A DNA stretch of 10,287 nt, from NCBI GenBank assembly GCA_013140465.1, contig JABFST010000456.1:1-10287 (forward strand), written 5' to 3'. Numbering within the stretch: the first letter of the stretch is position 1; each line of letters starts with the position of its first letter. The notes under the pieces are model-generated. The model was given only the letters and a program-made list of their open reading frames with translations, was not told where the DNA came from and made no database searches. This document shows, piece after piece, positions 1,390-3,456 of this stretch. Origin of the DNA: Methylococcaceae bacterium. GTDB taxonomy: Bacteria > Pseudomonadota > Gammaproteobacteria > Methylococcales > Methylomonadaceae. The translations under genes and the position numbers were made by a program.

Positions 1390-2095
1390 GCCACCCGCAA
1401 AACGTCTAAAGCCGTTTTACCCCAGCCCGGAGTGCAATGGCTTTAGACATTGCCTTGCCATGCGTAAAACGTCTAAAGCCATTTTACTCCAGCCCGGAGT
1501 GCAATGGCTTTAGACATTGCCTTGCCATCCGTAAAACGTCTAAAGCCGTTTTACTCCAACCCGGAGTGCAATGGCTTTAGACATTGCCTTGCCATGCGTA
1601 AAACGTCTAAAGCCGTTTTACTCCAGCCCGGAGTGCAATGGCTTTAGACATTGCCTTACCATCCGTAAAACGTCTAAAGCCGTTTTACTCCAGCTCGGAG
1701 TAAAAGGGTTTTACACATTGCACGGTTATCCGTAAAACGTCTAAAGCCGTTTTACTCCAACCCGGAGTGCAATGGCTTTAGACATTGCCGTGCCACCCGT
1801 AAAATGTCTAAAGCCATTTTACTCCAGCCCGGAGTGCAATGGCTTTAGACATTGCCTTGCCACGCGTAAAATGTCTAAAGCCGTTTTACCCCAGCCCGGA
1901 GTGCAATGGCTTTAGACATTGCCTTGCCATTCGTAAAATGTCTAAAGCCGTTTTACTCCAGCCCGGAGTGCAATGGCTTTAGACATTGCCTTGCCGCCCG
2001 TAAAACGTCTAAAGCCGTTTTACTCCAACCCGGAGTAAAAGGGCTTTAGACATTGCCTTGCCACCCGTAAAATGTCTAAAGCCATTTTACTCCAG
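1390..2095. repeat. Array of 67-bp hairpin-forming units (REP/BIME-like) next to a RAYT gene
   Basis: Units start (GTAAAA or GCAAAA) at 1397, 1464, 1531, 1598, 1665, 1732, 1799, 1866, 1933, 2000 and 2067: exactly 67 bp each time, ten full copies and one partial. The tail of a preceding unit (GCCACCCG) begins directly after the WD40 stop codon. Each unit contains GTCTAAAGCC and its exact complement GGCTTTAGAC, with ACTCC/GGAGT nested inside, so a single strand folds into a long hairpin with a five-base loop. Units are highly alike throughout their length. The 1665 and 2000 units differ, having GGAGTAAAAGGG where others have GGAGTGCAATGG. The adjacent transposase gene of the REP-associated class makes a RAYT-linked repeat family the natural reading. 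Confidence 0.9.
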
Positions 2096-2122
2096 TGGTT
2101 AAGGCCGTTTTACACCACTCCG

Positions 2123-2671
2123 TCAAAAATCATCTTCCGGCAATTTTAAGTCTTTATATCCTGGGTGGCTTTTAAATTGTTGCAGCAAATGCTCCCTGCC
2201 ACAGTCGGCAATGGTTTGGTGAAAGCTGGAAAATGGGTATTCGCTTAACCGGGTGGTATAACCATGCTTTACTGGATTCATCAGCAAGTAGTTCAGTCGC
2301 AACAGGTAGTCATTTTCATCACGCGGGCAATAATCCCAATAATTCCACCAAACTTGACCGTGTGTTTTTGTTGCGTGTTTGATATGGAAGCCGCTAACGC
2401 TATGGATTTCGTTGATTAGTTTGGGTAATTCGTTGCCTTTGTGGCTATGCCCTAACAAATGGTAATGGTTATCCAAAATGACCCAGTGCTGTAATAGCCA
2501 TTGATGTTGGTCAAAATAGTGTTGGATGCACTGCAATAAATTGGTTTTGAGTTCGGGGTTATTGAGTAAAGGGCGTTTTTGGTAAATAGCTGCGGTGATG
2601 AAATAGGCGGCATCATCCATAAAGATGTGTGGCGGATTGTGTTCGTAGGTCTTTTTGGTCATGGCTTGCAA
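2123..2671 (-). CDS. REP-associated tyrosine transposase (RAYT, Y1_Tnp/IS200-like)
   Basis: RAYTs are single-domain HUH nucleases that act on single-stranded hairpin DNA and are linked to the spread of REP sequences. Visible here, numbering from the TTG start: the metal-binding HUH motif as HYH (residues 69-71, in ILDNHYHLLGHS) and the catalytic tyrosine region NYLLMNPVKHGY, with Tyr128 the likely nucleophile. The preceding VWWNYWDYCPRDENDY block and the later PFSSFH are also typical of the family. The length of about 180 residues is usual. The start is either TTG at 2671 or ATG at 2662, giving MTKKTYEHN; I prefer the ATG, and neither has a clear ribosome site. The catalytic residues appear intact. 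The gene sits between copies of the 67-bp repeat, and its flanks carry imperfect 18-bp direct repeats (2100-2117 and 2690-2707). Confidence 0.88.
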   Translation of the reverse strand: MQAMTKKTYEHNPPHIFMDDAAYFITAAIYQKRPLLNNPELKTNLLQCIQHYFDQHQWLLQHWVILDNHYHLLGHSHKGNELPKLINEIHSVSGFHIKHATKTHGQVWWNYWDYCPRDENDYLLRLNYLLMNPVKHGYTTRLSEYPFSSFHQTIADCGREHLLQQFKSHPGYKDLKLPEDDF

Positions 2672-2694
2672 CCATTGGAAAAAAGGAAGTAAGG

Positions 2695-2780
2695 ACGTTT
2701 TATGCCAGCTTGGAGTGCAATGGCTTTAGACATTGCCGTGTTATTCGTAAAATGTCTAAAGCCATTTTACTCCAGCCCGG
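2695..2780. repeat. One and a half further copies of the 67-bp unit, right of the RAYT gene
   Basis: From 2695 the sequence follows the unit from CGTTTTA onward through GGAGTGCAATGGCTTTAGAC. A second copy starts at GTAAAATG (2747) and breaks off after CCAGCCCGG near 2780. The orientation is the same as in the left array. The two copies are in exact 67-bp register with each other, because the partial copy would have begun at 2680. The end of the second copy lies inside the toxin reading frame. Confidence 0.88.
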
Positions 2781-3015
2781 GGACTGAATGTTTACCGCGA
2801 AAGTAAACACCATAAGGAAAACGATTGGCTACTATGCGTCGAATATCCTTATGAACGGGGGAAAACTGATAGGGATACTCAGATGCAAGTACAACACAAC
2901 GGTCGATTTCACTAATAAACTCAAGCGCAAGTCCTGCTTTCTTATTTTCATACCATACGCTTGCTTCGATAAACTCTGCGCTAGCAGCACGATGAAAAGT
3001 AATTGGGAGTTTCAT
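2767..3015 (-). pseudogene. RelE/ParE-family toxin, 3' end truncated by the repeat element
   Basis: The first 78 residues look like a RelE/ParE-superfamily toxin (mRNA-cleaving or gyrase-poisoning in known members). MKLPITFHRAASAEFIEASV starts it, WYENKKAGLALEFISEID follows, and the IRRIVANRFPYGVYFR strand ends it. Family members normally continue about 20 residues past this strand with a final beta strand and an H-x-x-RDP-like end. Here the last residues (PGLE) and the TAA stop are encoded by the 67-bp repeat, giving only 82 residues. I infer that the native 3' end was lost when the repeat element arrived, so the toxin is probably inactive. Its ATG overlaps the antitoxin stop by four bases (ATGA), the usual coupled layout. 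A functional shortened form cannot be excluded. Confidence 0.75.
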
Positions 3016-3242
3016 TCGCTAATTTTGGCTAAAGCGGCAGCTTTTACTTCGTCCCAAGAAAGCACATCATTAGGATAGGCTAAATAATCAGCAAGGCGAC
3101 CGTCCAGTTCTCTTTTTTGTACATCTGTTATTGATGGGGCAACGCCGCGATTCACGATACCGTTCCAGATGGCTTCAACTAATTCTATTTGTTCATCAAT
3201 GTCTAGCTGACTTGCTTGCTCTAATAGAGTTGTGTTCATCAT
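3012..3242 (-). CDS. Addiction-module antitoxin (PF09720-like small helical protein)
   Basis: This small acidic protein of 76 residues is taken from ATG at 3242. The next codon (3239) is also ATG, and the in-frame TTG further upstream is less likely. The sequence LLEQASQLDIDEQIELVEAI, followed by WNGIV and ending in SWDEVKAAALAKISE, matches the short helical antitoxins (addiction module protein, putative component family) that pair with RelE/ParE toxins. In the family the protein binds and neutralises the toxin and often represses the operon. It lies directly upstream of the truncated toxin, with a four-base overlap. If the toxin is dead this gene may be an orphan. Upstream, an imperfect palindrome with CACT/AGTG ends (about 3290-3306) could be an operator, which is weak inference. 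Confidence 0.75.
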   Translation of the reverse strand: MMNTTLLEQASQLDIDEQIELVEAIWNGIVNRGVAPSITDVQKRELDGRLADYLAYPNDVLSWDEVKAAALAKISE

Positions 3243-3456
3243 TATTACCAAGTTGAAAGATTATTTTAGGACAGGTTAAAAATATCTACGCACTATAATT
3301 TAAGTGTAAATATTAGCTCTTTTTTAGCCGTGAGCAAGCTTGGCTGTGGGTATTAAACCTGACTGACCAAGCCCGTGCGGGTGCGTAGGATTAGCGATAA
3401 CATTAGTACGACAGCAACCACCTGATGAATCCCAAGCTTCCCGCTACACCGCCACC
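3243..3456. other. Intergenic region between the antitoxin and the large PEPCK-like gene
   Basis: These 214 bp follow the large minus-strand gene and precede the antitoxin gene. They are AT-rich toward the antitoxin end (3251-3330), where the antitoxin promoter should lie. A TATAGT hexamer is present on the minus strand but lacks a convincing -35 partner. CACTTAAATTATAGTG on the minus strand is an imperfect palindrome. I see no convincing rho-independent terminator for the large gene: the AGCC/GGCT stem near 3326-3345 has its T-run on the wrong side. Confidence 0.4.

Follow-up and report, generated by a model that had tools for sequence, protein, structure and literature searches.

A REP-associated tyrosine transposase and its probable GGAG-guided hairpin repeats in a Methylococcaceae genome

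The window analysed here, a stretch of 10,287 nucleotides corresponding to contig C267 of the draft Methylococcaceae genome G000 (507 contigs, 83% complete), carries a gene for a REP-associated tyrosine transposase (RAYT; REP, repetitive extragenic palindrome) next to a tandem array of REPINs (REP doublets forming hairpins). With a probability of about 0.78, the enzyme, a Y1 transposase with an HUH (histidine-hydrophobic-histidine) motif, and its cognate REPINs constitute a REPtron from a lineage in which the guide tetranucleotide GGAG replaces GT[A/G]G. The enzyme probably spreads the hairpin repeats. Tandem arrays of REPINs or of bacterial interspersed mosaic elements (BIMEs) beside RAYTs are already published, and the novelty apparently lies in the GGAG tag, which looks new. 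The distinct RAYT-linked repeat class suggested by the initial annotation of the window is borne out, by way of the GGAG foot, which that annotation did not mention.

The E. coli enzyme is reported to accept no change of its GTAG foot (PMC8266576), whereas the foot here is GGAG; a lineage with this tag and with a fixed set of altered residues on the guide-contact strand could expose the recognition code, which may be readable by swapping a few residues and bases. Furthermore, unequal array lengths at the same locus in G000 and in the draft genome G002, its closest relative for this locus, make the old question of RAYT-made BIME arrays testable. These considerations concern one clade and one switch, and the literature covered consists of open-licence papers.

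The GGAG foot and the WW lineage of RAYTs

The transposase open reading frame (ORF) scored 102.8 bits against the NCBIfam model of REP-associated tyrosine transposases (cut-off 80 bits) and matched Pfam Y1_Tnp, in agreement with its initial identification. The deduced protein has the Y1 HUH core and the TnpA_REP fold, with the HUH motif HYH (residues 66-68), the segment WWNYWDYCPR (residues 105-114) and a single catalytic tyrosine, placed by alignment at Y125, and the REPs flanking its gene are also scattered in the genome. REPs have been defined by a 5' GT[A/G]G (PMC3686654; PMC6006769); the REP foot found here is GGAG (GGAGTNCAA), which lies outside that printed definition. Among the matches listed, GGAG occupied 95 of 100 and 48 of 50 repeat places.

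The foot was compared over a set of RAYT loci obtained from 133 candidates, of which 6 without a matching ORF of at least 100 aa were dropped and 4 duplicates of named contigs were not counted. The resulting 123 loci, to which the window RAYT itself does not belong, comprise 71 with a WWNYW motif (WW), nearly all with NHYH and YL[LF]xNP, 48 with WQ, mostly DHLH, WQRR[FY]WEH and YIHxNP, and 4 others. Because WWNYWDYC was among the six peptide seeds used, the WW set has a built-in bias; GGAG was not a seed. In a protein search with other seeds, the exact WW motif was present in 110 of 120 among the matches listed, of 586 in total.

In 80 genome loci, GGAG stood at the foot of 314 of 882 hairpins around RAYTs (GTAG 10, GTGG 7) versus 51 of 570 hairpins far from a RAYT (GTAG 21, GTGG 9). 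A blind scan of all 256 tetramers placed GGAG at the top in WW loci (59/71 near versus 16/65 far) and GTAG at the top in WQ loci; for the latter the ratio of 19/48 near versus 6/19 far makes the foot detector a weak positive control. By a strict foot count, GGAG was found in 61/71 WW and 0/48 WQ loci, whereas GTAG or GTGG was found in 14/71 WW and 20/48 WQ loci and outnumbered GGAG in no WW locus. The WW logo reads GGAG-T-N-C-A-A (T 0.90, C 0.81, A 0.89, A 0.90). In a subclade of Methylobacter, Methylovulum and Methylomonas (L066, L067, L088, L117 and kin) the REP is the full palindrome GGAGTACAAACCTAGGTTTGTACTCC, the GGAG counterpart of the 'double foot' REP.

The RAYT tree was built from 116 rows, 7 further broken or partial loci being excluded. 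A branch (100/100) separates the WQ sequences from the WW sequences, which are grouped with L114, L115 and L120; a core of 66 WW rows is supported at 90/92. The WW rows span Pseudomonadota, Chloroflexota, Thermodesulfobacteriota, Planctomycetota, Calditrichota and others, which implies horizontal transfer. Locus L120, with NHYH, WY, YIHMNP and GTAG feet, suggests that GTAG came first and GGAG later, an order made unsure by three long branches. The candidate-phylum relatives L114 and L115, basal to the WW clade, differ in their feet (those of L114 are GGAC/GGAT-like) and are possible intermediates.

With respect to its motifs, the clade shares with TnpA_Y1 subclass 2.8 the NHYH, a residue other than Gln after W and relatives in unrelated phyla (PMC6006769). 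That subclass is listed there with W[YH], YIHYNP and GT[AG]G, whereas the present clade has WW, YL[LF]xNP and GGAG; the window RAYT, which has NHYH but WW, YLLMNP and GGAG, is accordingly not a member, and it is L120 that resembles subclass 2.8.

Array anatomy and growth in place

Tandem Repeats Finder (TRF) recovered the array as initially described, ten full copies and a partial one with unit starts spaced by exactly 67 bp, and one and a half copies on the other side of the RAYT (positions 2690-2780); the best TRF score among 100 dinucleotide shuffles of the window was 64, versus 1139 for the real array. Each unit consists of a 62-nt REPIN, running from GGAG to CTCC and made of two inverted REP hairpins, and of a 5-nt linker, and a lone inverted REP half precedes the ten REPINs (Table 1). 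Many single copies elsewhere span GGAG to CTCC, which marks this segment as the mobile unit. REP A is identical in 8/10 units and REP B ends with CTCC in 9/10. Folded as single-stranded DNA, three complete REPINs each gave one long hairpin (z -3.9, -7.5 and -8.1), and the opposite strand of the first gave z -3.5. Over 194 REPs from the fetched stretches, three stem pairs vary on both sides, only the pairs other than the loop and two stem pairs fixed by the search pattern being free to vary; these paired changes, by which the palindrome after the tag is kept, indicate hairpins under selection. The units thus have the anatomy of REPINs or BIMEs, i.e. two inverted REPs that are separated by a short spacer and fold into a single hairpin, and their head-to-tail tandem arrangement is that of BIME-2 or of an ordered REPIN cluster. 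Outside the arrays, 40 repeat loci of G000 and G002, hand-picked from the matches listed and not random, held an inverted doublet in 17 cases (gaps 5-97 nt) and a lone REP in 20. Both genomes also contain scattered doublets of a second class, with a gap of 22 nt (GGAGTGCAACGG / GGAGTACAACGG; L212-L251), alongside the array REPINs with gaps of 10-11 nt.

Table 1. Coordinates of the features of the window
Feature	Position	Strand	Remarks
Tandem array, period 67, 10.5 copies	1390..2095	+	TRF: 90% matches, score 1139
Ten 62-nt REPINs	in 1390..2095	+	Starts 1429 + 67n (n = 0-9); 5-nt AGCCC-type linkers
First REPIN	1429..1490	+	REP A GGAGTGCAATGGCTTTAGACATTGC, 10-nt spacer, inverted REP B ending CTCC
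Odd unit 5	1697..1758	+	Chimeric REP (GGAGTAAAAGGG...), spacer ACGGTTATCC typical of arrays C231/C288, in register
RAYT (TnpA_REP-type Y1 HUH transposase), 179 aa	2123..2662	-	ORF 2123-2671, first ATG 2662
Degenerate half REP	2690..2711	+	Upstream of RAYT start
Single REPIN	2712..2773	+	Upstream of RAYT; one long hairpin, z -8.05
Tandem repeats of 123 bp within the WD40 gene	378..1133		Gene next to the array; repeats coding, unrelated to REPINs
ORF resembling a ParE/RelE-type toxin by eye	2767..3015	-	No Pfam match; ends within the REPIN region, final codons derived from the repeat
ORF of the PF09720/TIGR02574 antitoxin	3012..3251	-	Neighbour of the toxin-like ORF

The claim that the copies are highly identical over the whole unit, including the segment between hairpins, did not hold: mean pairwise identity in the window array is 0.941 and 0.956 for the hairpins and 0.729 for the 10-nt spacer. 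Further arrays were found in G000 on contigs C133 (5.8 x 67 bp), C20 (8.3 x 67), C231 (7.4 x 67), C288 (5.4 x 67) and C70 (5.9 x 133), none of which carries a match in the RAYT family search, the G000 matches lying on C267, C374, C302, C142 and C181 only; by synteny with G002, contig C133 adjoins the left end of the window. The arrays on C20, C231, C288 and C70 contradict the supposed tie between array and RAYT position and indicate that array growth needs no adjacent RAYT gene; this distribution is the one expected of REPINs mobilised in trans.

Over 60 units from ten arrays, aligned with gaps, spacer identity was 0.813 within and 0.623 between arrays (0/1000 shuffles as large), the values for REP A being 0.960 and 0.950 (16/1000) and those for REP B 0.946 and 0.939 (76/1000). 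The spacer is the neutral part, private to each array, and the hairpins are the recognised part, common genome-wide. Corresponding arrays with a common spacer type differ in length, with 10 units on C267 versus 8 on G002 contig C81, paired by the WD40 side and the RAYT, and 8 units on C20 versus 3 on G002 contig C62, paired by one flank only. Array-private spacers, hairpins alike genome-wide and these length differences support the in-place expansion initially proposed. In unit 5 of the window array the spacer is of the C231/C288 type, from which it appears that arrays exchange units.

Arrays of longer period (C70, 133 bp; G002 C35, 131; C73, 228; C384, 198; C48, 172) take in duplicated host DNA. 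Four of the nine boundaries placed in these five arrays, namely the C70 start, the C35 start and end and the C48 end, lie at most 6 nt outside a REPIN end, versus 0.78 expected (P 0.005). Seven loci entered this test; C297 and C19, where the REPIN but not the flank is repeated, were dropped although their ends would have favoured our reading, and C384, cut off by the end of its contig, gives a single boundary. The position of these boundaries, in line with in-place expansion, hints that breaks occur at REPIN ends, the pattern expected of an enzyme that cuts beside REPs.

Tandem arrays within 500 bp of the RAYT occurred in 27/71 WW versus 5/48 WQ loci (P 0.0008, relatedness ignored). RAYTs had initially been taken to sit usually beside one or a few REPs, which disagrees with this frequency and with the clusters described in PMC2817692 and PMC3116915. 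One third of RAYTs adjoin BIMEs, and the E. coli yafM REPtron has BIME-2 on both sides (PMC2817692). In Pseudomonas fluorescens SBW25, as here, inverted REP pairs fold as hairpins, and 16 ordered tandem clusters, flanking sequence included, are described, with REPIN clusters adjoining all three RAYTs (PMC3116915). The largest ordered cluster of that strain contains four REPINs and one REP (PMC3116915), compared with ten REPINs here, and its REPs are listed with GTGG or GTAG (PMC2817692) instead of GGAG.

Passive growth is the strongest competitor for the arrays and falls only a little short of even odds: the RAYT would scatter REPINs, whereas arrays would lengthen without the enzyme, through slippage during replication or through unequal recombination among hairpin-rich repeats. 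It accounts for the four arrays on contigs without a RAYT-family match, for private spacers, which any local process should produce, and for the in-register foreign spacer of unit 5, such as gene conversion leaves. Slippage alone would not be expected to place boundaries at REPIN ends or to make arrays commoner beside WW than beside WQ RAYTs. We infer that the arrays are produced by the RAYT and not by slippage or recombination alone.

Two further proposals concerning the arrays were not retained. Synteny with G002 is lost at the C20 array, close to the C133 array and, in the window, at the REPIN upstream of the RAYT; arrays are nevertheless not claimed as marks of genome rearrangement, since the right side of the window maps to two other G002 contigs and synteny is generally poor. 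Likewise, one flank of C133 can be aligned with G002:C81 until roughly 30-50 bp short of the array and the other is unaligned; no REP-like sequence was found in 8.1 kb of G002:C81 at the matching place, which indicates absence of the array but no clean empty site. C288 and C70 had no usable orthologous site in G002.

GGAG as a guide sequence

In E. coli, cutting occurs at CT beside the REP, GTAG is crucial, and the guide model pairs its A3 and G4 with CT (PMC8266576). GGAG retains A3-G4. The E. coli enzyme (structure 4ER8) has Q95 and H101, whereas the window RAYT has W and Y at the aligned places, the second W of WWNYWDYCPR replacing the Q95 that contacts the guide in E. coli. In the 40 sampled loci, CT directly precedes GGAG in 28/61 REPs versus 5.5% background, and the CTCC at the far end of the REPIN contains a CT. 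In the proposed mechanism, the RAYT would bind the folded single-stranded REP through the GGAG foot and the T-N-C-A-A stem base, cut at CT near REPIN ends, rejoin the DNA and scatter REPINs in trans; arrays would grow in place by tandem duplication, with breakpoints often at REPIN ends. With a GGAG guide, cutting at CT would be possible in the array only at sites within CTCC.

Alternatively, GGAG might not be the guide but the last four bases of an extended GTRGGAG tag of the pseudomonad kind, or a mere part of the stem. Many pseudomonad REPs do read GTRGGAG (tables of PMC2817692 and PMC3686654), in some relatives GGAG lies inside the full palindrome mentioned above, and one or two of its bases fall within the detected stem in 39 and 123 of 311 WW cases, respectively. 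In WW loci, however, the bases before GGAG are close to random (GTA in 5/61, GTG in 0/61), from which we conclude that it is not the tail of the pseudomonad tag. GGAG also stands at the stem foot in WW loci as GTAG does in WQ loci, and the stem of REP A in the window begins after GGAGT. The alternative is therefore improbable.

Several observations weigh against a GGAG-guided REPtron that builds its own arrays. By the strict count, 10/71 WW loci lack a GGAG foot; some of them are partial genes, and in three of the ten (L066, L074, L081) GGAG lies inside a full palindrome, but L054, L075 and L114 lack it in both counts. Neither foot was detected in 28/48 WQ loci, and the WW sequences form one clade, so that the link between foot and protein is a single evolutionary event. 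CT precedes fewer than half of the sampled REPs and none of the 11 window REPINs, whose linkers end with CC or TC and whose upstream copy is preceded by TT. Arrays remote from any RAYT reach almost the same length, the boundary result comprises 9 boundaries under a 6-nt limit chosen after seeing the data, and copy numbers may be off, G000 and G002 being drafts.

The most complete version of the GGAG reading is tentative and, taken as a whole, rather unlikely. According to it, a multi-phylum NHYH/WWNYWDYCPR lineage exchanged a GTRG guide for GGAG with matching changes Q95 to W and H101 to Y, A3-G4 was kept so that each CTCC end has its own CT site, and arrays arose in place through cuts at REPIN ends, perhaps via small single-stranded circles.

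That the array is maintained as a regulatory or terminator element is highly unlikely: it does lie between the convergent WD40 gene and the RAYT, and its hairpins appear to be under selection, but the same units are widely scattered and form arrays elsewhere, and both spacers and copy number drift. A collapse or misjoining of short reads is barely credible, despite the fragmented and incomplete assembly of G000, since the independent genome (G002:C81) has the same order of neighbour gene, array and RAYT, and private changes distinguish the units.

No GGAG class of REPs was found in print among open-licence PMC papers, supplements apart. Among the matches listed, the papers pairing repetitive extragenic palindromes with GGAG appear from title and abstract to be typing or marker studies, and none appears to be a REP study. 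The repeats tagged GTAG or CGTC described in PMC3733652 likewise comprise short tagged palindromes, dimers and tandem groups, whereas GGAG is neither of these tags, and the string is absent from the main text of that paper. For Thiomargarita nelsonii, a host of the present clade, 13 IS200-like genes and palindromic repeat families are reported, and no such tag is named in the available portion of the paper (PMC4853749).

Distribution of the RAYT and its repeats

Among the 61 genomes searched, 35 of them from the genus, this RAYT was found at 94% identity or above only in G000 and G002, and at 67-68% in three more genus genomes. G000 contained 106 matches to the 67-bp unit and G002 contained 65, and the remaining 33 genus genomes had 0-2 apiece (1-2 in five of them), the cognate REPs being abundant in the two of 35 in which the RAYT was found and not in the others. 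Completeness is below 90% in 13/35 genus genomes, G000 among them, and not all absences are firm. The situation named initially as contrary to the proposed linkage, a repeat abundant without any related RAYT, was not seen within the genus, several of these genomes being incomplete.

Abundance of cognate REPs is not general, since a single exact pattern of the Methylobacter type was matched only 5, 1 and 0 times in three other WW hosts: the feet were four GGAG and one GCTG in one Methylobacter genome and one GGAG in another, and Desulfonema magnum, whose REPs differ, had no match to this pattern. One of the relatives at 67-68% carries an array built on the same plan, with a 74-bp unit and altered stems (GGAGTAAAACAGC / GGAGTGCAACTGC), which shows that stems drift while GGAG and the CTTTAG core are retained.

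The RAYTs of L013 and L014 (G000 contigs C302 and C142), with a WQEG motif, adjoin palindromes of the TTCCCAAGC/GCTTGGGAA type; these lack both GTAG and GGAG immediately at the foot and may represent another type of REP. At L131 (contig C142, 4439-4777), the 3' end of another RAYT gene is caught in a 170-bp tandem repeat of two copies, comparable to the rayt 3' ends caught in BIMEs described in PMC2817692.
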